NCBI RefSeq assembly: GCF_900102695.1 | Contig: NZ_FMVW01000001.1 | Span: 868,001 to 932,000 of the forward strand | Length of the DNA stretch: 64,000 nt | Source: Afifella marina DSM 2698 | GTDB lineage: Bacteria; Pseudomonadota; Alphaproteobacteria; Rhizobiales; Afifellaceae | Direction: 5' to 3' | Shown: positions 8,356 to 18,573 of the stretch, piece after piece | Numbering within the stretch: the stretch's first letter is position 1 | Layout of the letters: each line of letters begins with the position of its first letter | Made by a program: the position numbers and the translations under genes | The notes under the pieces: generated by a model | What the model was told of the DNA's origin: nothing | What the model saw: only the letters and a program-made list of their open reading frames with translations | The model's database searches: none

Positions 8356-9048
8356 TCATTCCACGGCTGCCGATCCACTGCCCGTTTCAAGAAGCCTTGC
8401 GGCGAGCTCGGGTGTGAGTTGCGCATAGCTGTCGATGATCACGTCGGGACGAAGCTCAGCCATCGGTTTCGTGGTGTAGCCGAAGGGCACGCCGATGACC
8501 GGAACGAAGGCCGCTCGCGCCGCCGCGATGTCGGCCGCCGAATCGCCGACCATCAAGGCCGCATCCGGTTTGCCGCCCGCGGCTTCGATCGTCTCAAGGA
8601 GGTGGGCCGGATGGGGTTTGCGCTTGCTGACCGAATCGGCGCCGAGCACCGCCTGAAAGCGGCCGAGCAGCCCGAGCTGATCGAGAAGCAGCTTCGACAT
8701 GCCGACGCGCTTGTTGGTGCACACGGCAAAGCTCCAGCCGACGGCATCGAGCGCGTCGAGCGCGCTCACAAGTCCTGGAAAGGGCCGGCTGTCGACGCAG
8801 ATATTTTCTTCGTAATGGGCGAGGAAGACCTCCAGCAATCGGTCGAGCTCTTGCGCATCGACCTTGCGCCCCGAGAGCTTCAAACCCTCCTCGATCATGG
8901 CCCGCGCACCGCGCGAGATGCAGGGCATGATGCGTTCGCGCGGGGCTGGTGGCAGGCCGCGCCCGCCCAGCACATGGTCGAGCGTGGCAAGAAGGTCGGG
9001 GGCGGTGTCGACGAGAGTGCCGTCGAGATCGAAGACGATGAGGGCCAT
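8356..9048 (-). CDS. gph: Phosphoglycolate phosphatase (HAD superfamily)
   Basis: This cytoplasmic hydrolase removes phosphate from 2-phosphoglycolate, the by-product of DNA-end repair or Rubisco oxygenation. HAD motif I is FDLDGTLVDT at residues 5-14, motif II is AVCTNKR, the motif III lysine is in KRKPHP, and motif IV is MVGDSAADIAAA. A helical cap domain occupies about residues 15-80. At 230 aa it has Gph length. Related HAD phosphatases (pyrophosphatase PpaX, phosphonoacetaldehyde hydrolase) cannot be fully excluded. It is upstream of tRNA-Val and divergent from the CooA-like gene. Confidence 0.88.
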   Translation of the reverse strand: MALIVFDLDGTLVDTAPDLLATLDHVLGGRGLPPAPRERIMPCISRGARAMIEEGLKLSGRKVDAQELDRLLEVFLAHYEENICVDSRPFPGLVSALDALDAVGWSFAVCTNKRVGMSKLLLDQLGLLGRFQAVLGADSVSKRKPHPAHLLETIEAAGGKPDAALMVGDSAADIAAARAAFVPVIGVPFGYTTKPMAELRPDVIIDSYAQLTPELAARLLETGSGSAAVE

Positions 9049-9269
9049 GGCGTCGGGCTAGCCGAGGCGCGAGGCGGGTGCAAGGAGGAGGGCAAGGCCG
9101 AGCCCTTGTCGGGTGTGGCGAATGGCCGACATTGCGGGGCTTGTTGAGGTGGTGTGATATCTTGCCAAATCCGCCGTTGCTCTCCCGTTGGGAGCGAACG
9201 GAAGGTCTTGGGTCGCCCGAGCCTGGCGCGACGACCGGCATGAGGAAAGACCGGCATGAGGGGGTGTGC

Positions 9270-9893
9270 GTGACCGATCAACCATTGTCCGCGCATTGGC
9301 TCGACCGGCTCGAAAACGGTCACCGGCGCCGTTATGGCGCAGGCACCACGATTTCGTATCCCGACGCGGGGACGGACCAGCTCTTCGTGCTCAAGACGGG
9401 TCTGGCGCGCATCTGCCTCAACGGCGCGACGAAGGCGCTGACGCTCTCCTATCTGCGTCCCGGCGGCATCTATGTGACGCATACGCGCGCCTGGGTGGAG
9501 GCGCTTGAGGATTGCGAGATCGTGAGCTGGCCGGTTCGCGAGATGCTGGCACTTGTCTCCCGCCATCCGGAGCTCGGTGTGGAGGCTCTGCGCGATATCG
9601 GCCAGGTGCTCGCGGGGGCTCTCGACCTGATCGAGGATCTCGCCTTCCGGCCGGTCGAATCGCGGCTTGCCCGTTTTCTGCTTCTGGAAAGCGCCAGGCA
9701 GGCAAGCGCCCGCATCCGCCTCATCGATCATACGGAAGCGCTGGCGAGCGCTCTCGGCACCTCGCGCCAGACGCTGTCGACGCTCGTCAACAAGCTCATC
9801 CGCGACGGCATCGTCATCCGTGACGGGCGCGATCACCTCCTGATCCTCGATCGGCCGCGGCTTGAAGAATTGAGCGCGCTGTCGCCCGGCTGA
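9270..9893 (+). CDS. cooA: CooA-like CRP/FNR-family regulator (probable heme CO sensor)
   Basis: The 207-residue protein has an N-terminal effector domain, a dimerisation helix (IEDLAFRPVESRLARF) and a C-terminal winged helix. Against Rhodospirillum rubrum CooA as I remember it, several stretches align: the recognition helix TSRQTLSTLVNKLIRDG versus SSRQTTSTALNSLIKEG, IEDL-x-F in the dimer helix, and YVTHTRAWVEALE versus FCMHSGCLVEATE. The last keeps the heme-ligating His (H71 here, H77 in CooA), while CooA's redox-switch Cys75 is replaced by Val. The GTG at 9270 follows a GAGGGG ribosome site. ATG 9240 and GTG 9264 are in-frame alternatives. In CooA the N-terminal amine is the other heme ligand, so the exact start matters. 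cowN follows, with a CooA-type operator between. Confidence 0.78.
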   Translation: MTDQPLSAHWLDRLENGHRRRYGAGTTISYPDAGTDQLFVLKTGLARICLNGATKALTLSYLRPGGIYVTHTRAWVEALEDCEIVSWPVREMLALVSRHPELGVEALRDIGQVLAGALDLIEDLAFRPVESRLARFLLLESARQASARIRLIDHTEALASALGTSRQTLSTLVNKLIRDGIVIRDGRDHLLILDRPRLEELSALSPG

Positions 9894-9895
9894 CA
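9880..9895 (+). promoter_or_regulatory. Predicted CooA binding site upstream of cowN
   Basis: TGTCG-N6-TGACA fits the CooA pattern TGTCR-N6-YGACA exactly and sits inside a longer inverted repeat, GCGCTGTC-N8-GACAGCGC (9876-9899). It overlaps the stop codon of the CooA-like gene. Its centre (9887.5) lies about 41.5 bases before the start site predicted from the -10 hexamer at 9917, the spacing of class II CRP-type activation. Confidence 0.75.
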
Positions 9896-9916
9896 GCGCG
9901 GCGCCCGCGCCTGCCC

Positions 9917-9922
9917 TATGAT
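9917..9922 (+). promoter_or_regulatory. Predicted -10 hexamer of the cowN promoter
   Basis: TATGAT differs from the sigma-70 consensus by one base. Transcription would start near 9929. No good -35 box is present; the CooA site covers that position, as expected for an activator-dependent promoter. The resulting leader contains a 6-bp hairpin (GGCCTT/AAGGCC, 9946-9963) before the cowN ribosome site GGGGAGAGGA. Confidence 0.6.
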
Positions 9923-9984
9923 ACGGCGCTCTGACTCGGGGGAACGGCCTTTTTCGGAAGGCCAGGGGAGAGGATCAGCAGACG

Positions 9985-10272
9985 ATGGCCAGTCAAGCCG
10001 CCGATCGCGGCGACCGTTACGTGAGTTTTCTGGGGCTCGATTGCGATGCCAAGGCGGACGCCATGATGGCGATGCTGTCGGACGCGATGCGCACCAGCAG
10101 CTCGCAATGGGTCGGCTATTTCGAGCAAAAACTCGCCGAGAACCACAAAATGGGCCGCGACAACCTCTATTTCGTCGGCAGCCAGGTGAACGCGCTCTCC
10201 GCCTTCTTCGAGGAGGAGGGCGACGAGGAGGCGCTGTCGCTCCTCTCCGAGCTGGAAGACAAATGCTGCTGA
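9985..10272 (+). CDS. cowN: CowN, N2-fixation-sustaining protein under CO
   Basis: CowN allows nitrogenase-dependent growth when carbon monoxide, a nitrogenase inhibitor, is present. The 95-residue protein shows the family's features: N-terminal DRYVSFLGLDCDAKADAMM, a central WVGYFEQKLAENHKMGRDNLYFV, the NALSAFFEEE segment, and the terminal Cys-Cys in LEDKCC. Full length is normal for the family. In R. rubrum cowN is under CooA control; here it directly follows a CooA-like gene, with a matching operator and -10 hexamer. Its presence implies that the genome encodes nitrogenase elsewhere. Confidence 0.9.
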   Translation: MASQAADRGDRYVSFLGLDCDAKADAMMAMLSDAMRTSSSQWVGYFEQKLAENHKMGRDNLYFVGSQVNALSAFFEEEGDEEALSLLSELEDKCC

Positions 10273-10299
10273 ACGGGCGGGGGTGAGTTTTTGGGGCTG

Positions 10300-10407
10300 A
10301 CGCCGTCGGCGCCGCGCATGAGGCTATCCGCAGGGCATGAGGTTGTACGCCGGCGCCGGTCGATGACTGCTCTCGCCTGACCTCTGGAGTCGATCGACCG
10401 ACGGCGT
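10300..10407. repeat. Nested inverted repeats downstream of cowN
   Basis: A 10-bp perfect inverted repeat, ACGCCGTCGG (10300-10309) and CCGACGGCGT (10398-10407), encloses a second one, CGGTCGAT (10357-10364) and ATCGACCG (10393-10400), that extends to about 12 bp with one bulge. The two cannot form fully at once because they share bases 10398-10400. CGGCGCCG and CATGAGG also occur twice inside. It could be a transcript-end structure or an intergenic repeat element. Confidence 0.4.
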
Positions 10408-10427
10408 AGGTCGGCTATGCGCCCAAA

Positions 10428-10452
10428 CGAGACGATTAGATCTCGATTTTTT
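10428..10452 (+). terminator. Possible terminator after cowN
   Basis: CGAGA and TCTCG (10428-10432, 10441-10445) form a 5-bp stem followed by ATTTTTT, in the orientation of cowN. The stem is short, so strength is uncertain. An alternative pairing, ACGAGAC with GTCTCGT (10427-10433, 10453-10459), would hide the T-run in a loop. Confidence 0.45.
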
Positions 10453-10484
10453 GTCTCGTAAGCGGGCGTTATTGTCGGTTCTTT

Positions 10485-11390
10485 CTAGACCTTCGCAGGG
10501 GGGACCACGGATTTATCGCGTCGAGGCCAAATCGCGAAGACGAGGAGATTGCCGATCAGGATCAACACAAGCCCAGCGCCCGCCAGCGGCGTCACGCGGT
10601 AATCTTCGGCAAAGACGGAGATCGTCAGGGCTACCACGGGGAAGAGGACGGTCATATAGGCGGCCCGCTCGGGGCCGAGGCGATGGACGACCATGAGATA
10701 GGCCGTGAAGCCGATCACCGAGCCAGGGATCGCGAGATAGACGAGCGATCCGACATAGACCGGCGAGGGATCGAACTCGAAAGGAACGCCTTGCACGAAG
10801 GCGACCAGGGACACGATCGCGGCACCGTAGAGCATTGCCCAGGCGTTCACCGAAGCGACCTCCAACCCGTTGCCCTGGTTGCGGGCCGAAACGAGATTGC
10901 CCGCCGAAAAGAGCCATGTCCCAAGAAGCGCTAGAGCGAGGCCATAGGCTGTATCCGCGCTGAACTTGGCCCCTGTCACCGTTTCCGAGAACAGGCAGGC
11001 AATGCCCGCGACGCCGAGCATCGCGCCGCCGAGGACGCGACCTTCTGGGCGGCGGCGATAAAGAAGGAACACGTTGGCCATGTTGAAGATCGTAGCCGCC
11101 GAAAATACTACTGAAACAAGTCCGCTCGGCATGAATCTCGTCGCTGTGTAGAAGCACAGGAAATTACATGAGAAAAGAAGCGCGCCCTGAAGAAGGACGA
11201 AAGGCTGCTGGCGCACAGGGATCAGCTGGAGACGGCGCGTGACAGCGAGCACCACGAACAGCACCGATCCAGCCAGCGCGAAGCGATAGGCGATCGAGGC
11301 CTCGACCGGAACGGGTCCGAGCTGGTTTGCGATCGCGATCCAGGTGGTCCCCCAGATGAGGACGGTCAGGGCATAGAGAAAGGCGGTCAC
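10485..11390 (-). CDS. EamA/DMT superfamily membrane transporter
   Basis: This 301-residue protein has ten hydrophobic helices and two EamA repeats. The N-terminal FLYALTVLIWGTTWIAIANQLG and the helix-4/5 FMPSGLVSVVFSAATIFN are typical of YedA/RhaT-like exporters. A GTG at 11390 with AGGA eight bases upstream is the likely start; the longer open frame adds an arginine-rich stretch unlike this family. It is divergent from an AraC-type regulator (170-base gap), which may control it. Substrate unknown. Confidence 0.83.
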   Translation of the reverse strand: MTAFLYALTVLIWGTTWIAIANQLGPVPVEASIAYRFALAGSVLFVVLAVTRRLQLIPVRQQPFVLLQGALLFSCNFLCFYTATRFMPSGLVSVVFSAATIFNMANVFLLYRRRPEGRVLGGAMLGVAGIACLFSETVTGAKFSADTAYGLALALLGTWLFSAGNLVSARNQGNGLEVASVNAWAMLYGAAIVSLVAFVQGVPFEFDPSPVYVGSLVYLAIPGSVIGFTAYLMVVHRLGPERAAYMTVLFPVVALTISVFAEDYRVTPLAGAGLVLILIGNLLVFAIWPRRDKSVVPPAKV

Positions 11391-11559
11391 GGTCCGATCC
11401 TGCAGGTGTCGTCTTGGAGTTCTAAGAGACACCGAGAGGCCGATCTGCGCTTCCACGATCCGGCGGCGCCGTTGCACGATCTTGGGCTTTTCTTGGCGTG
11501 GTGTTGCGTCTGCTTCCAGAGCCCGTCATTAATGAGCGTCATCACCCAGACGGTCACCA

Positions 11560-12429
11560 ATGGAACAACCCTCACCCAGTGTCGCCGACGCCCTTGCCCG
11601 CACCGGGGCGCGGCTTGAGCGAGCGGGCACGGTCGGGCGCGGCATCTCGCTCGCCGAATGGAGTAATCGCGGCAGCGAGACACATTATGACCGCCCTGGA
11701 CATCACACGCTCAGCGTCTATCTGACGGGCGGGGAACGTGTAGTGAGGGAGGACCTCCGTCTGTCCGGCGGCGCGCCGGACAAGCTCTGTCTCCTGCCTG
11801 CGGGGCACGAGAGCCGCTGGCACATCGGCGGCCCGGTGCGCATGTTCCATCTCTACCTCGAACACGAGGCGCTGGCCTACCGTGCGCTCACGGCCTTCGA
11901 TGTCGACCCTCGCCGGATCGACCTTCGCGATACGACCTTCAGCGACGATCCGGCGATGGCGGCAATAGTGCGTGGCGCGGTACTGCCGCTCGACTGGACG
12001 GAGCCAGGCGAGCACTCGGCGCTCGACGCTGCCTGCCACGTCCTGGTCCATCGCCTGTTGCGCCAATACGTGGACCGGGACGGGGCGGTCGGTGGCGGCC
12101 TGTCTCCCGCGACACGGGCACGGATCGGCGATCTGATCGAAGCGCATCTCGGCGAAACATTGACTCTCGATCGAATGGCCGAGGAAGCGCGGCTCAGCAC
12201 GTTCCACTTCGCCAAGATGTTCCGGGTCAGCTTCGGGCTGCCACCTCATCGCTACATCGGCGCCCGCCGGATCGAGCGTGCGAAACTTCTCCTGCGCTTG
12301 AAAGAGTTGCCGCTCGCGAACATTGCCCTTTCCTGTGGCTTCTCCTCGCAAAGCCACTTCACGCGCGCCTTTAAGTCGGCGACAAGCATGACGCCGGGTG
12401 AATGGCAACGAGGTCAACGATTGCAATAA
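11560..12429 (+). CDS. AraC family transcriptional regulator
   Basis: The 289-residue protein has an N-terminal ligand-sensing half (cupin-like, with HYDRPGHHTLSVYLTGGERV) and a C-terminal pair of helix-turn-helix motifs over the last 100 residues: LTLDRMAEEARLSTFHFAKMF, then ALSCGFSSQSHFTRAFKSA. The family signature GFSSQSHFTRAFK is clear. It diverges from an EamA transporter and ends three bases before a convergent LysR gene. The neighbouring exporter is the obvious candidate target. Confidence 0.88.
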   Translation: MEQPSPSVADALARTGARLERAGTVGRGISLAEWSNRGSETHYDRPGHHTLSVYLTGGERVVREDLRLSGGAPDKLCLLPAGHESRWHIGGPVRMFHLYLEHEALAYRALTAFDVDPRRIDLRDTTFSDDPAMAAIVRGAVLPLDWTEPGEHSALDAACHVLVHRLLRQYVDRDGAVGGGLSPATRARIGDLIEAHLGETLTLDRMAEEARLSTFHFAKMFRVSFGLPPHRYIGARRIERAKLLLRLKELPLANIALSCGFSSQSHFTRAFKSATSMTPGEWQRGQRLQ

Positions 12430-12432
12430 TTG

Positions 12433-13359
12433 TCAGTCTCGTCCGGTTACGCCCCACCCCGGATCCGTCCCGAGTTTGATGAAGTCGATGAAGACTCGCA
12501 ACACAGCCGGCATCCGAGTTCGATTTGAATAATAAAGATAAAAGCCTGGCAGCTCCTCGCCGTAATCGGCCAGGACCCGCAGCAGTTCGCCGCGTTTGAG
12601 ATGCGGCGCGACGAAGTCTTCGGGCAGGAAGGCGAGGCCCATTCCCTGCAGGGCTCCTGCGAGCAGGAGATCGGTATCGTTGGTGGTGAAGGCGTTCTCG
12701 ACCGCGATCGTTTCCGAGGCCCTGCCGGCCCCCTCGAAGCGCCACGGTAGAAGGGCGCCGCTTCCCGCAAATCGATAGCTGAGGCAGCGGTGGCGGGAAA
12801 GGTCCCGTGGCGTCTTTGGCGGTGGGTGCGCAGCAAAGTAGTCCGGCGAGCCGACCACGGTCGTCAGGATGTCCGGCGTCAGGCGCACCGCGATCATGTC
12901 CCGGTTCACTTCGCCGCCGATGCGCACGCCGGCGTCGAAGCCTCTTGCCACGATATCGGTGATCTCGTTGTCGATCACGAGGTCGAGCTCGACCCCCGGA
13001 AAGGCCGCAGCGAAAGCACCGAGGCGCGGCATCACCACCAGCTTGGCCGCGATGCTCGGCAGATTGATCCGCACGACGCCCTTGGGTTGCGATTGGTAGG
13101 CGCCTGTCTCGCGAAGGGCGGCGTCCATCTCAGCAAGGGTGGGTTCGATGCGGGCGTAGAGGCCCTGGCCCGCCTCCGTCGGCGCGACACTGCGTGTCGT
13201 ACGGTTGAGGAGCCGGACGCCCAGTCTTTCCTCCAGCGAGCGAACGGCGCGGCTGAGGGCGGAGGGCGATAGCCCGAGCCGCTTGGCGGCGCGGCGAAAA
13301 TTCCGCTCTTCCGCCACCAGTGCGAAGGCACGCAGCTCGGCAAACTCGCTTGGCGTCAT
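12433..13359 (-). CDS. LysR family transcriptional regulator
   Basis: The 308-residue protein begins with a LysR helix-turn-helix (FAELRAFALVAEERNFRRAAKRLGLSPSALSRAVRSLEERLG) and continues with a type-2 periplasmic-binding-like effector domain (from about residue 90). ATG 13359 is the only start that gives the canonical N-terminus. It is divergent from a quinone-oxidoreductase-like gene with a 142-base gap, the usual arrangement of a LysR regulator and its target. The AT-rich stretch at 13371-13391 in that gap is the best place for its binding site. Confidence 0.9.
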   Translation of the reverse strand: MTPSEFAELRAFALVAEERNFRRAAKRLGLSPSALSRAVRSLEERLGVRLLNRTTRSVAPTEAGQGLYARIEPTLAEMDAALRETGAYQSQPKGVVRINLPSIAAKLVVMPRLGAFAAAFPGVELDLVIDNEITDIVARGFDAGVRIGGEVNRDMIAVRLTPDILTTVVGSPDYFAAHPPPKTPRDLSRHRCLSYRFAGSGALLPWRFEGAGRASETIAVENAFTTNDTDLLLAGALQGMGLAFLPEDFVAPHLKRGELLRVLADYGEELPGFYLYYSNRTRMPAVLRVFIDFIKLGTDPGWGVTGRD

Positions 13360-13501
13360 TGTGCATTCCCGCGCAACAAATGATGCCGGATTAACACTAT
13401 TTTTCTGCACGATGCCAGGATGCACATTCCCCTCAACACCGGAGCGCACCGATCGCCGATCGATCGGGCGGCCTCCGGCTCCGACCAACGAGGATATGAG
13501 C

Positions 13502-14521
13502 ATGACGGAAATGCAGCGCTGGGAAATCGATGCGGTCGGGCTTGATCGACTGCAACTGCACGAACGTCCGATGCCGACGCCCGGCATTGGCGAGATACTC
13601 GTGCGGACGGAAGCCGTCGCATTGAACTACCGCGACAAGATGGTGGTCGAAACCGGGCGCGGCCTGCCGCTCCGCTTCCCCTTCACGCCGGGATCGGATC
13701 TCGCCGGCGAAGTCGCAGCTCTCGGCGAGGGAGCCTGTCGGTTCGCTGTCGGGGACCGGGTCGTCTCGACACCGACGCCGGACTGGATCGACGGCCTTCG
13801 TCCCGGCACGGCCCGCACTCCCGCCTACCAGACGCTTGGTGGATATTATCCGGGCGTGCTCGCCGAATATGTCGCAATGCCGGAAGTCTGGTTTGCGAAG
13901 GCACCCAAAAGCCTCGAACCATGGCAAGCGGCGACGCTGCCGGTAGCCGGGCTGACGGCGTGGTCGGCGCTCGCGGAAAGTGTAAGGGTGCGCGCAGGCG
14001 ACACTGTGCTGATCCCCAGCACCGGAGGTGTCGCACTGTTTGGTCTGCAGATCGCCAAGGCAAGCGGCGCGGAGGTCATCGTCTGCGGCCAGCCCAACAA
14101 TGAAGCGCGGGTGCGCGCTCTGGGCGCGGATCACTTCGTGAATGCCGGTGCGGAAGACTGGATGGATGAGGTCTACCGGATCACCAGCGATCGCGGCGCC
14201 GATATCGTCCTGGAGGTGATCGGCGGGGCGCATCTCGGCCAATCGGTCGAGCTTGCCGCCGTGGGCGGCCATGTCTGTCAAATCGGCGCTCTTGATGGCT
14301 TCGAATTCAGCTCCGCCGCAATGCCCCTGATGCTGAAGAACGTCACCATTCACGGCATTGGAACAGGCAGTCGCAGCGCGCTGGAGCGCCTCGTGCGGGC
14401 GGTGGACCGCGCCGGCATCCGCCCGGTGGTGGACGCACGATATCCGCTCGCCGAATTGCCCGCCGCTTTCGCGCATCTCGCTCGCGGTCCCTTCGGCAAG
14501 GTGGTCATCGACATGCGGTAG
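13502..14521 (+). CDS. Medium-chain dehydrogenase/reductase, quinone oxidoreductase-like
   Basis: This NAD(P)-dependent MDR enzyme has a GroES-like N-terminal half (LVRTEAVALNYRDKMVVETG, FTPGSDLAGEVAALGEG) and a Rossmann half (TVLIPSTGGVALFGLQIAKASGAEVIVCG). The cysteines that bind catalytic zinc in alcohol dehydrogenases are not seen, which fits the zinc-free quinone-reductase branch. AGGA at 13491-13494 favours ATG 13502 over ATG 13496. It is transcribed divergently from a LysR gene, its likely regulator. Substrate unknown. Confidence 0.85.
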   Translation: MTEMQRWEIDAVGLDRLQLHERPMPTPGIGEILVRTEAVALNYRDKMVVETGRGLPLRFPFTPGSDLAGEVAALGEGACRFAVGDRVVSTPTPDWIDGLRPGTARTPAYQTLGGYYPGVLAEYVAMPEVWFAKAPKSLEPWQAATLPVAGLTAWSALAESVRVRAGDTVLIPSTGGVALFGLQIAKASGAEVIVCGQPNNEARVRALGADHFVNAGAEDWMDEVYRITSDRGADIVLEVIGGAHLGQSVELAAVGGHVCQIGALDGFEFSSAAMPLMLKNVTIHGIGTGSRSALERLVRAVDRAGIRPVVDARYPLAELPAAFAHLARGPFGKVVIDMR

Positions 14522-14618
14522 CACAGTGACGAATCAGCCGCCGCGCAGGACCTTCACACACGTCCGCTTGGAAATGACCCGTCACGGGCAGAAACGACAG
14601 GGAACCGGTCGGGTGCGA

Positions 14619-14665
14619 TATGGCGGCTTTCCGCCATACCGCCCTGAAAGCCGCCGGTCCTTTTT
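14619..14665 (+). terminator. Terminator with a mutually exclusive upstream hairpin
   Basis: GGCGGCTTTC (14622-14631) pairs perfectly with GAAAGCCGCC (14646-14655), followed by GGTCC and TTTTT (14661-14665): a terminator about 100 bases after the MDR gene. The same bases can instead form TATGGCGG/CCGCCATA (14619-14638). The two hairpins exclude each other, as in an attenuator, and lie 70 bases before the next gene. Confidence 0.55.
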
Positions 14666-14735
14666 CGGCCCGAGTCGGTCATTGCCGCGTAAGTGCGAAG
14701 CGCTGACAGGCATCCGCGAGCTACTTACGAGTACC

Positions 14736-15674
14736 ATGCGCCTTTTCTCTATTTTTTCCCTGCTTTTTCCCGCGATGGCGATGGCCGAACCCGTTCATAT
14801 CCCCGGGCCGCAGGGGCCGCTCGAAGCGGAACGGACCGCCGTCGACGCGGCGACGGACGCCGTCGTCATCATTCCGGGATCTGGGCCCACGGACAGGGAC
14901 GGGAATTCCCCGCGGATGGGCGTTTCAACGGATGCCTACAAGTTGCTGGCCGAAGGGCTGGCCGAGCGTGGGATCGCATCGCTGCGCATCGACAAGAGGG
15001 GTTTTTACGGCAGTGCCGAGGCCATTGCCGATCCGAACGACGTCACCATCGAGGCTTATGCCGACGATGCCCGCAACTGGGTGGATTATGCGTCCAGCCT
15101 GGCTCCTTGCGTGTGGATCGCGGGGCACTCCGAAGGCGGGCTGGTGGCCCTCGTGGCGGCACAGGAGGCGCCCAAAAACCTTTGCGGCCTCATTCTCCTG
15201 GCGAGCTCGGGACGACCGATCGGAGACTTGATGATCGAGCAATTTGCGGCCAACCCGGCCAATGGCCCTCTGATGCCCGAGATCAGGGCGATCGTGACCG
15301 ATCTCAAGGCCGGCCGAAGCCGCGATCCGGCTTCTTTGCCGCCCGTTCTGCAACCGCTCTTTTCCGCAGGCGTGCAGCGCTACATGATCGACCTGTTTTC
15401 CTATGATCCCGTGACTGTCGCCGCAAACTGGCAAGGCCCCGTGCTGATCGTTCAGGGCGACGACGACATGCAGGTTCGCCCGCGCGATGCCGATCTGCTC
15501 GAACGTGCCATGCCGCAGGCGCAGCGCATGGACCTTGCCGGCGGCACGCATATGCTGAAGGCCTCCGTGAAGGGGGATCCGTTTGCCACATACACGGATC
15601 GCACTCTTCCGCTTCACGAAGAGCTTGTGCCTGGCATCGTCCGCTTTCTGGATGAAATGTCGAAGCCGCACTGA
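14736..15674 (+). CDS. Exported alpha/beta hydrolase
   Basis: The 312-residue protein carries a signal peptide (MRLFSIFSLLFPAMAMA, residues 1-17) and an alpha/beta hydrolase fold. The nucleophile elbow is GHSEGG, the acid is probably in VQGDDDMQV, and the His in GGTHML. An oxyanion-loop-like IIPGSGPTDRDGNS near residue 50 resembles the serine aminopeptidase/YqiA-type hydrolases. ATG 14736 starts right before the signal peptide; the longer frame upstream overlaps the MDR gene. It is convergent with hemB. Substrate not predictable. Confidence 0.82.
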   Translation: MRLFSIFSLLFPAMAMAEPVHIPGPQGPLEAERTAVDAATDAVVIIPGSGPTDRDGNSPRMGVSTDAYKLLAEGLAERGIASLRIDKRGFYGSAEAIADPNDVTIEAYADDARNWVDYASSLAPCVWIAGHSEGGLVALVAAQEAPKNLCGLILLASSGRPIGDLMIEQFAANPANGPLMPEIRAIVTDLKAGRSRDPASLPPVLQPLFSAGVQRYMIDLFSYDPVTVAANWQGPVLIVQGDDDMQVRPRDADLLERAMPQAQRMDLAGGTHMLKASVKGDPFATYTDRTLPLHEELVPGIVRFLDEMSKPH

Positions 15675-15786
15675 CGGCTGCGGGCTCATAGCGGCCGGCT
15701 GGCCTGGGCCGGCCTGGCTCCGTGAAGGAAGCGGTCTCTGCCGCTGCCCGTCTGCCGCTACCCGTCTGCCGGAACGCATGCGTCGC

Positions 15787-16773
15787 CTATGAAGCGCTGA
15801 CCCATCCTTCCCGCAAAGCCTGGCGGGCGTAATAGCTGATGATGAGGTCGGCTCCCGCGCGCTTCATCGCCAGCAGGCTCTCATGCACGCTCGCAGCCTC
15901 ATTGAGGGCGTCGGCATCGGCCGCGAAGCGGATCATCGCGTATTCGCCGCCGACCTGGTAGCAGACGAGGGGCAGGAGGGTACGCTCGCGCAGGCGCGTC
16001 AAAACGTCGAGATAGGGCAGACCCGGCTTGACCATGAGCATGTCTGCGGCCTCCGCCTCGTCGATGAGGGATTCCAAGAGCGCCTCGCGCCCATTGGCGG
16101 GGTCCATCTGGTAGGCCCGGCGGTCGCCGACGAGATCGCATCCCGCCGCGGCCCGGAAGGGACCGTAGAAGGCAGAGGCGAATTTCGAGGAATAGGCGAG
16201 GATCGGCGCCTCTGGGTGGCCGCCTTCGTCGAGCCCGCGCCTGATGGCGGCGATCTGTCCGTCCATCATGGCGGAGGGAGCGACCATATCGGCGCCCGCC
16301 TCCACGGCGACGAGCGCCTGGCGGGCGAGATTTTCAAGCGTCGCATCGTTGTCGACGCCGTTGGGGCCATAGACGCCGCAATGGCCGTGGTCTGTGTATT
16401 CGCAGAAGCAATTGTCGGTGATGACCACAAGCTCCGGCACTTCGCGCTTGGCAGAGGCCACCATCCGCGCCATCAGACCGTCGGGGTTCCAGGTGTCGCT
16501 GCCCTCGGCGTCCTTGTGGTGCGAGATGCCGAAGAGGATGACGGCCTTGACGCCGTCTTCGGCAATCGCGTTGATCTCCCGCGCCAGCGATTTTTCCGGC
16601 ACGCGGTGGATGCCTGGCATCGTCGGAATCGCCACCGGCTCGGAAATCCCTTCTTCGACGAGGAGGGGATAAATGAGGTCGTTGGCCGAGATGTGCGTTT
16701 CTTGAACGAGAGAGCGCAGGGGCGCGGAATGACGAAGCCGGCGCTGTCGTCTCAAAGGGAAAATGGCGGACAT
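15787..16773 (-). CDS. hemB: Delta-aminolevulinic acid dehydratase (porphobilinogen synthase)
   Basis: HemB condenses two 5-aminolevulinate molecules to porphobilinogen, a step shared by heme and other tetrapyrroles. The two Schiff-base lysines are visible in YSSKFASAFYGPFR and LMVKPG. The metal region is DNCFCEYTDHGHCG, with the three cysteines of the zinc-binding type. Length (328 aa) and the RLRHSAPLRSLVQE start are standard. It lies 68 bases downstream of an AraC-type gene on the same strand. A good heme supply would also serve the CooA-like sensor at 9270, but no direct link is visible. Confidence 0.96.
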   Translation of the reverse strand: MSAIFPLRRQRRLRHSAPLRSLVQETHISANDLIYPLLVEEGISEPVAIPTMPGIHRVPEKSLAREINAIAEDGVKAVILFGISHHKDAEGSDTWNPDGLMARMVASAKREVPELVVITDNCFCEYTDHGHCGVYGPNGVDNDATLENLARQALVAVEAGADMVAPSAMMDGQIAAIRRGLDEGGHPEAPILAYSSKFASAFYGPFRAAAGCDLVGDRRAYQMDPANGREALLESLIDEAEAADMLMVKPGLPYLDVLTRLRERTLLPLVCYQVGGEYAMIRFAADADALNEAASVHESLLAMKRAGADLIISYYARQALREGWVSAS

Positions 16774-16841
16774 GATCCTCTCCGAAAAGAGCGGAATCTA
16801 TGCTTCGACGCTATGTCGCGCGTCGCGAGTTTTGCCAGATT

Positions 16842-17681
16842 CTACGCCGGATCGGACAGCGCTGGATCGGACAGCGCCGGATGCGATCCGATTGCCGGTG
16901 ATGTGCCATCGTCGAAATAGCGGCTCGGCTTTTCGCCCATGATGTCCCGGAACATCGCCGCGAAGGCGCCGGGGGTCTCATAGCCGAGATCGGCGGCGAC
17001 GACGCCGACGGCTTCACCCGCCGCCAGACGCGGGATGGCGGAGAGCGCGCGCACCTGCCTGCGCCATATGAGGAAGCTGCTGCCGAATTCGCGCTTGAAC
17101 AGGCGGGCAAGCGTTCTGGAGGAGGCGCCGACCTCTGCCGCCCATTCCTGAAGGCTGCGCGTGTCGCCTGGCCGATCGACAAGTGCGCGGCAGATTGCAG
17201 CAAGTCGCCTGTCCCGCGGCATCGGCAGATGGGGAAGCCCGTCATCCACCCAGGCGATTTCGTAGAGCACCAGATCGAGAACCCGTCGGTCGGGCTCGCT
17301 CGGCGTCTCGGCGAGAGGCATCGCCACCACACGCAGGATAAGCTCGCGCAGGAGGGGGGAGACGCGCACCGTCTGCGGCTCCTGCGGGAAGCGGGGCGGG
17401 CAGGCGTCGCGCGCGATAAAGAGCGTGCGCAGCGAGACGGCACCGCGGGCGCGCATCTCATGGACGATGCCGGCCGGCATCCACACCGCCCGCTGCGGCG
17501 GCACCAGCCACAGCCCGTCGGCGGTCGCGACCTCCATGGTCCCTGCGCTCGCATAGATGAGCTGGGCGCGCGCGTGGCTGTGAGAGGCGATGTGCAGACC
17601 CGCCGGATAGTCTTTCGGCATCCCGACGATGGCTTGCGGGGAGACCTGATAATCGGCCGGATCGGTGCTCTTTTGTGTCAT
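16842..17681 (-). CDS. AraC family regulator (cupin N-terminus)
   Basis: The 279-residue protein has an N-terminal cupin (HIASHSHARAQLIYASAGTMEV, then VWMPAGIVHEM) and a C-terminal AraC domain with SLQEWAAEVGASSRTLARLFKREFG and VAADLGYETPGAFAAMFRDIMGEKPSRYF. The last residues repeat as SDPALSDPA because of a 15-bp tandem duplication (16849-16878). It is upstream of hemB on the same strand and divergent from rpiA. No specific inducer can be named. Confidence 0.88.
   Translation of the reverse strand: MTQKSTDPADYQVSPQAIVGMPKDYPAGLHIASHSHARAQLIYASAGTMEVATADGLWLVPPQRAVWMPAGIVHEMRARGAVSLRTLFIARDACPPRFPQEPQTVRVSPLLRELILRVVAMPLAETPSEPDRRVLDLVLYEIAWVDDGLPHLPMPRDRRLAAICRALVDRPGDTRSLQEWAAEVGASSRTLARLFKREFGSSFLIWRRQVRALSAIPRLAAGEAVGVVAADLGYETPGAFAAMFRDIMGEKPSRYFDDGTSPAIGSHPALSDPALSDPA
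16849..16878. repeat. 15-bp tandem duplication at the 3' end of the AraC gene
   Basis: Two copies of GGATCGGACAGCGC plus one base lie head to tail (16849-16863 and 16864-16878). The length is a multiple of three, so the frame is kept and the protein ends in a repeated SDPAL motif. Confidence 0.85.
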
Positions 17682-17880
17682 GCCGCCGGCTTACTAGCAC
17701 AGCTCTTTCGGCCCGGCAGCCGGTGCTGCGGCGCCCCGCAGGCTCCTCGCTTGAGGTTGATCGCTTGAGGCCGTGGGTTGTCATCCGATAGGCTCTGGCG
17801 CAAACGGGTCGCACGACAGGATCCAATAACGGCGCGGCGGACTGAACGCGCTTTGAAGATAAGCGGCAGGCGGGGCAACA

Positions 17881-18573
17881 ATGACGGATGATCTGAAACG
17901 CCAGGCGGCCGAGGCGGCCATTGAGTTTGTCGAGGACGGCATGAAGCTCGGCCTCGGCACGGGGTCGACGGCGAGCTGGTTCGTAAAACTTCTGGGCGAG
18001 AAGGTTCGCGCCGGCGTGAATGTCGTCGGCGTGCCGACATCGGAGGCGACAGCCAAACTGGCGCAGGACGAGGGGATTGCGCTCACCTCCCTCGACGAGA
18101 TCGACCGGCTCGATCTCACCGTCGACGGCGCCGATGAGATCGGCCCGGATCTTGCCCTGATCAAGGGCGGCGGCGGCGCGCTGTTGCGTGAGAAGATCGT
18201 GGCAGCCGCCTCCGCGCGCATGCTCGTCATCGCCGATGCCGGCAAGCATGTCGAAAATCTCGGGGCTTTTCCTCTGCCGATCGAGGTCGTGCGCTTCGGC
18301 AAAAAGGCGAGCGAAAGGGCCGTTGCGGAGCTGATTTCGGAGCTTGGCCTCAGCGCAGAACTCGCCTGGCGCATACGCGGCGGAGAGCTTTTTGCAACCG
18401 ACGAAGGCCATGTCATCATCGATGCATCTTTTGGCCTCATTCCTGATCCAGAGGCGCTCGCGCGCGGCCTGTCGGAGATCCCCGGCGTCGTGGAGCACGG
18501 GCTCTTTCTCGACCTGGCCGAGACGGCGCTGATTGCCACGCCCGAGGGTGTTAAGAGGCTCACCCGCGCGTGA
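17881..18573 (+). CDS. rpiA: Ribose-5-phosphate isomerase A
   Basis: RpiA interconverts ribose-5-phosphate and ribulose-5-phosphate in the pentose phosphate and Calvin pathways. The N-terminal phosphate-binding [13 protein letters not shown] and the catalytic block [26 protein letters not shown], with its Asp and Lys, are present. Length (230 aa) is typical. A GGCGGGG ribosome site precedes ATG 17881. It is followed 73 bases later by a DUF2059 gene and then gor, all rightward. Between the divergent AraC gene and rpiA a CGCTTGAGG direct repeat (about 17742-17768) is seen. Confidence 0.95.

Follow-up and report, generated by a model that had tools for sequence, protein, structure and literature searches.

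A putative CO-responsive cooA–cowN gene pair with a candidate operator over the cooA stop codon and a conserved promoter geometry

The cooA-like gene and the cowN gene that follow one another in the window (the whole stretch of 64,000 nucleotides that was analysed) very probably constitute a two-gene CO-response module for Mo-nitrogenase, in which cowN would be transcribed from a CooA-activated class II promoter of the sigma-70 type. In the mechanism proposed, CO would bind to the heme of the CooA-type protein and convert it into its DNA-binding form; this would bind a palindrome that lies over its own stop codon, at the -35 position, and would recruit sigma-70 RNA polymerase as a class II activator, such that cowN would be made under CO. 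CowN would then be expected to keep nitrogenase active under CO, as has been described in other species (PMC8047169). At the level of sequence, the reading is carried by the identity of both proteins, the operator, the promoter geometry, the nif genes and the joint presence or absence of cooA and cowN within the genus, and it is by analogy with published work on relatives that heme binding, the response to CO, the direction of control and the protection of nitrogenase are considered probable. The locus is a further example of the known cooA–cowN module, ordinary but well supported, and is not a new system. Its elements, in window coordinates, are the following.

8356–9048, minus strand: gph-like gene upstream of cooA
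9270–9893, plus strand: cooA-like gene of the CRP family, encoding a putative heme-type CO-sensing activator of 207 aa (PDB, Pfam, tree)
9876–9899, no strand assigned: candidate operator, a 24-bp palindrome GCGCTGTC-N8-GACAGCGC, containing TGTCG-N6-TGACA at 9880–9895 (the conserved 16-bp site)
9917–9922, plus strand: -10 hexamer TATGAT of the predicted cowN promoter, the best -10 match, 21 bp past the operator
about 9964–9974, plus strand: purine-rich ribosome-binding stretch before cowN, as read from the sequence
9985–10272, plus strand: cowN, N2-fixation-sustaining protein of 95 aa ending CC (PF20543, NF033689)
10428–10445, plus strand: terminator-like site after cowN (2 such sites in the scanned region, 0.9 expected)
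10485–11477, minus strand: EamA transporter gene downstream of cowN

An earlier, sequence-only reading had described the CooA-type gene, the operator, the TATGAT hexamer and cowN, and when coordinates were checked on the sequence each of these was present where it had been placed. The cooA frame opens with GTG at 9270 and closes with TGA at 9891–9893, and cooA, operator, -10 box and cowN are arranged head to tail on the plus strand. GTG at 9270 is the preferred start of cooA, though not a certain one; GTG at 9264 is also a possible start, because the congener G488 has GTA at the position equivalent to 9270. The arms of the palindrome are perfect over 8 bp each (9876–9883 and 9892–9899), and the 9880–9895 site, with the sequence TGTCGCCCGGCTGACA, overlaps the cooA stop codon.

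The regulator is of the CooA type, as had been proposed from its heme-pocket and recognition-helix segments: both segments are present and can be aligned with CooA, and structure matches and a tree agree. Its closest matches in the PDB are ChCooA-1 of Carboxydothermus hydrogenoformans (2fmy, 3.3e-24) and RrCooA of R. rubrum (1ft9, 2.3e-19), with the top non-CooA structure at 1.1e-10 in the same search. The CRP/FNR-family helix-turn-helix domain PF13545 is passed at 48 bits (cut-off 27) and the effector domain PF00027 barely, at 27.6 bits (cut-off 27.5), whilst no NCBIfam model names the protein, the seven that matched all being far under cut-off (best 46.2 bits against 274). In a tree of 20 rows, including E. 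coli CRP and FNR together with paralogues from its own and related genomes, the regulator and five other cowN-linked proteins were placed on the side of the two known (crystallised) CooAs with a split of 100/98, and these six cowN-linked regulators form a group of their own (100/99) beside the known CooAs. Clustering with non-heme members of the CRP family had been named as an outcome that would speak against CooA; in this tree, which was drawn without CprK and RcoM, the regulator stays apart from the CRP/FNR rows.

The alignment adds detail on the heme pocket. All six cowN-linked regulators have the equivalent of His77, the heme histidine of RrCooA, and all six have Val at the position equivalent to Cys75, the R. 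rubrum-type redox ligand. An 8-residue gap in the heme pocket relative to E. coli CRP is common to the regulator, RrCooA and ChCooA; for CooA, loss of a CRP segment that would block heme has been described (excerpt of PMC12937710). Residue 2 of the regulator is Thr if translation begins at GTG 9270 or Cys if it begins at GTG 9264, as against the Pro2 or Ala2 ligand of studied CooAs, and the N-terminus falls several residues short of that of L079. The latter, encoded in G414, is an RrCooA-like protein that begins MPPRF, keeps the pocket Cys and His, and does not lie beside the cowN of that genome.

Given the Val in place of Cys75 and an unclear N-terminal ligand, ligation in this protein differs from that in RrCooA, which lends something to the alternative that the regulator is a heme protein answering another signal (NO or redox) and driving cowN for that, as does the existence of CooA-side proteins without the heme histidine. 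This alternative is nevertheless judged highly improbable, as the regulator retains both the His77 equivalent and the CooA-type gap, its partner gene cowN serves in CO protection, and ChCooA reportedly uses His82 and Ala2 without a ligand switch, the activation mode of RrCooA being called unique (excerpt of PMC6955866). For the same reason the missing Cys75 equivalent does not exclude CooA, and Cys75 is not taken as defining the CooA family. L080 (G560) and L081 (G646), which likewise fall on the CooA side, share the 8-residue gap but have no heme histidine; tree position alone is therefore no proof of CO sensing.

The identification of the downstream gene as cowN, with 95 residues ending in Cys-Cys, is upheld by two curated models, the protein scoring 111.6 bits against PF20543 (cut-off 27) and 108.5 bits against NF033689 (cut-off 48), and it is 91.6 and 92.6% identical in two congeners. 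The module had been taken to imply that the genome carries nitrogenase, and nif genes including nifD, nifA and nifB were indeed found. NifD reaches 865.8 bits with TIGR01282 (cut-off 653.55) and is over cut-off in four congeners too, so that all five genus members have nifD; in this genome there are four consecutive PF00148 frames at 585–591 kb of contig C12, and nifA and nifB score 755.6 bits (cut-off 528.85) and 687.7 bits (cut-off 343.65), respectively. CooS (TIGR01702), the anaerobic CO dehydrogenase, was found in none of the six genomes searched (this one, the four congeners and G442), and therefore CooA here is probably not for anaerobic CO oxidation; a role linked to the anaerobic enzyme was rejected on this count. 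The suggestion that the strain meets CO was dropped, since it is not deducible from sequence.

The operator alone says less about its regulator than its appearance suggests. The site TGTCGCCCGGCTGACA is the sole match to TGTCR-N6-YGACA in the window, where shuffled sequence gave a mean of 0.20 matches and at least one match in 17 of 100 shuffles. The exact fit to consensus claimed by the sequence-only reading thus stands as a sole match at 9880–9895, but the fit does not separate CooA from NifA, TGTCR-N6-YGACA being contained within the NifA box TGT-N10-ACA, and the genome has no more matches than chance would give: 11 places, against 11.1 expected from base composition. A reversed-pattern control gave one place, but about 11–12 would be predicted from base composition and from the shuffled window (0.20 per 64 kb). 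The whole-genome search for further sites, which had been recommended, yields no CooA regulon by itself, and the count was discarded as support for such a regulon, no enrichment being claimed. As the number of places equals the expectation from composition, the match at cowN is informative only via its position and its conservation.

One of these 11 places is the cowN site, and four are NifA-type boxes of the nif cluster, distributed over three promoters. Two of the boxes precede nifB, and an IscA-like gene and an ETF-domain (fixA-like) gene have one each; at all three promoters a sigma-54 match with a score of 15–16 follows downstream, the box beginning 72–102 bp before it. Five places are inside reading frames, of which two are named by Pfam (an AI-2E transporter and an NAD-binding dehydrogenase) and three are known as frames alone, one of them having been scanned without a Pfam match. 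The remaining place precedes bchE (L018:5227; G000 C12:14226), where TGTC-N8-GACA overlaps TTGAT-N4-ATCAA, presumably an FNR-type box.

It is the conserved arrangement of the site relative to the promoter that points to CooA. Six cooA–cowN pairs were found: in this genome, in the congeners G412 and G488, in G442 (same order as this genome), on a plasmid of Rhodobacter sp. CZR27, and in G784 (labelled as the same phylum only); since three of these are congeners, they represent four independent lineages at most. Searches for further pairs at E 1e-15 or better returned one of 48 genomes in the order of G784 and one of three in the family of G442, these being G784 and G442 themselves, and none beyond those known. 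A CooA-type promoter had been proposed for cowN here, with the centre of the site some 41.5 bp ahead of the predicted start, and this geometry is conserved in all six pairs. In every pair the cooA stop codon falls within the site (LSxG-stop, followed by CAG), and two congeners have the same 16 bp as this genome. Of the hexamers at offsets of 10–39, the best -10 match starts exactly 21 bp after the site in six of six. The spacers of different lineages share just 4–9 of 20 bases and so are not simply unmutated, and a common best offset at a score of at least 4 across the four lineages was met in 0 of 20000 base shuffles, in a test devised with the spacing already known. Some of the site may be maintained through protein conservation, since it is partly coding (LSxG); its non-coding part is the CAG that follows the stop. 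A promoter scan of 9040–10500 found no TTGACA/TATAAT promoter, i.e. no -35 consensus, which would be as expected for an activator-dependent promoter and is no proof of one; the operator appears to occupy the place of the -35 region, its centre at about -41.5 from the predicted start.

Sigma-54 signals were looked for with a home-made consensus score and weighting, for which a threshold of 13 was used and the background is 0.12 matches per 300 bp. A match of at least 13 within 300 bp upstream of cowN was found in none of the six cooA-linked loci; at the cowN of this genome the box would fit a NifA/sigma-54 promoter, but the top sigma-54 score in the window is 11. Within 300 bp upstream of cooA there is likewise no match of at least 13, the best score being 12 in three of the six loci and lower in the others. 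Amongst 32 other cowN loci, obtained by genome searches and with no adjacent cooA found (tblastn over flanks of at most 1.5 kb gave none; for L059 the contig ends about 0.4 kb upstream), 24 have a sigma-54 match of at least 13 upstream; 21 of the 24 come from two families (f215, 10; f184, 11), which makes for far fewer independent events. L041, below the CowN cut-off, was left out of the counts, and G414 and G519 gave cowN matches but no locus and stand outside the promoter count. A separate contig collection contained CowN at 12 loci, also outside the 32. For eight of these cowN loci, L024–L031, from purple sulfur bacteria to judge by their names, tblastn revealed no CooA over about 4 kb; five of the eight have a sigma-54-like match of at least 13, and TGTCR-N6-YGACA is present upstream of cowN in three. 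L032–L035, actinobacterial with weak partial CowN matches, were left out.

Two side observations concern loci of this kind. In ten f184 loci (L052–L055, L057–L060, L062 and L066), where no adjacent cooA was found, the sigma-54 match TGGCAAGGTGATTGCA (TGGCAAGCTGATTGCA in L055) is located about 55 bp upstream of cowN, and eight of the ten also carry TGT-N10-ACA, about 149 bp before cowN, reading TGTCACAAACGCGACA in five. In G478, of the same genus as G442, the locus L061 has cowN with no CooA found upstream and with neither TGT-N10-ACA nor a sigma-54 match of at least 13 within 300 bp upstream; the cooA–cowN pair is therefore separable.

These data bear on the alternative that the palindrome is a NifA box, that NifA and sigma-54 drive cowN together with the nif genes, and that cooA is a neighbour of other function. 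The site does fit TGT-N10-ACA, NifA-type boxes followed by good sigma-54 promoters account for four of the 11 places in the genome, the pattern is also found before some cowN genes where no adjacent cooA was found (e.g. L024, L025, L028 and most f184 loci), and a NifA-dependent cowN with overlapping boxes is described for Gluconacetobacter diazotrophicus (excerpt of PMC8047169). Such a promoter is nonetheless very unlikely here: the cooA-linked loci have no sigma-54 match of at least 13 within 300 bp upstream of cowN (0/6), the element conserved instead is a -10 box at 21 bp, and the site lies about 41.5 bp before the predicted start, unlike the nif boxes with their 72–102 bp to the sigma-54 match. 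Dual control, in which CooA would activate in response to CO and the same box would be bound by NifA too, as help or as roadblock, so that nitrogen and CO are both answered, has been proposed for G. diazotrophicus and is a lesser, though real, possibility for the present locus. It would accord with a box that satisfies both consensus sequences, with the box overlap and nitrogen dependence published for G. diazotrophicus (excerpt of PMC8047169), and with the single TGT-N10-ACA match of CZR27, 169 bp before cooA; against it, no sigma-54 match of at least 13 is found near cowN or within 300 bp before cooA, compared with scores of 15–16 at the nif promoters. Activation of cowN by CooA from a sigma-70-type promoter is thus the reading retained. 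On the side of dual control there is also R. capsulatus, for which nitrogen-linked control of cowN is reportedly the subject of Hoffmann 2014.

Comparison with other systems places the locus amongst relatives. In R. rubrum, which likewise has a CRP-type CO sensor, cowN is reportedly CooA-dependent (Kerby 2011). There cooA is linked to the coo genes (excerpt of PMC4257681); the Cys75 of RrCooA has no equivalent here, and the two proteins are but distantly similar, with 30.6% when the congener protein L064 is aligned to an RrCooA segment. The head-to-tail cooA–cowN arrangement with the operator over the stop codon, which had been put forward as worth recording, is confirmed as an arrangement, but the adjacency of the two genes was already published (excerpts of PMC8047169 and PMC4257681). 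G. diazotrophicus has algH-cooA-cowN, with overlapping CooA and NifA boxes, the tGTCg-N6-tGACa box, some 60 bp before cowN, overlapping TGT-N10-ACA, and cowN is NifA-dependent there with expression up under nitrogen-fixing conditions (excerpt of PMC8047169). The two loci share cooA beside cowN, and differ in having algH upstream there and gph here, in the distance to cowN (a site-to-cowN gap of 89 bp here), and in the upstream region of cooA, which has no sigma-54 match of at least 12 here whereas in G. diazotrophicus cooA is likely RpoN-dependent (same excerpt). In Rubrivivax gelatinosus, a phototrophic purple bacterium, cooA also adjoins cowN; strain CBS differs in possessing coo genes and RcoM as well, with no CooS found here, and two relatives of Rubrivivax gelatinosus have cowN without anaerobic CO oxidation genes (excerpt of PMC4257681). 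The cooA-like gene of Rhodobacter sp. CZR27 (L090) matches at 63.5% over query residues 3–207, lies directly before cowN, and has the site over its stop codon with 21 bp to TATCCT; it differs in a gap to cowN of 53 bp, in its location on an 860-kb plasmid, and in an annotated start that begins MP. Amongst the titles found in the literature, none deals chiefly with the overlap of the stop codon or with the constant distance of 21 bp, neither of which is claimed as unpublished, and the excerpts of PMC10590331, PMC12903952 and PMC5371261 leave the reading of the locus unaltered.

The history of the pair can be followed within the genus. Five members were searched: cooA and cowN occur together in this genome, G412 and G488, and are both absent from G518 and G546. 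G412 and G488 share the order gph-cooA-cowN-hemB-araC-rpiA, and gph adjoins rpiA in G518, G546 and two genomes of another genus, G453 and G591; because these four related genomes without cooA and cowN have the two flanking genes side by side, parsimony points to a gain of the block in the lineage of this genome, G412 and G488. The block, with hemB and an araC-type gene in addition to cooA–cowN, lies between gph and rpiA at 9048–17881 of the window (compare L071, L072, L102, L103, L096 and L097). This genome has about 5.3 kb extra between cowN and hemB (10485–15786), missing in G412 and G488, which holds the EamA transporter gene and frames that on inspection resemble AraC, LysR, oxidoreductase and hydrolase genes. 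The hemB of the block (15787–16773) scores 546.3 bits with NF009923 (cut-off 507), above its 437 bits with NF006762 (cut-off 297).

Taken more widely, and tentatively, with a chance somewhat short of even, cowN may have two exchangeable promoter designs that share one motif and cannot be distinguished by it: NifA with sigma-54, under nitrogen control, where there is no adjacent cooA, and CooA with sigma-70, under CO control, where there is, a Cys75-less CooA subclade carrying the operator in its own 3' end as a self-contained CO switch that needs no NifA. In the loci examined, a -10 box at 21 bp as against a sigma-54 element separates the CooA from the NifA design, and TGTCR-N6-YGACA, a pattern that NifA boxes satisfy as well, cannot by itself serve to predict CooA regulons in nitrogen fixers. 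With this locus a bchE-bearing, probably alphaproteobacterial genus joins the carriers of the cooA–cowN module, and CooA is seen to accompany cowN in genomes whose search for CooS found none. An operator within the 3' end of cooA would explain the joint movement of the gene pair and its control element.
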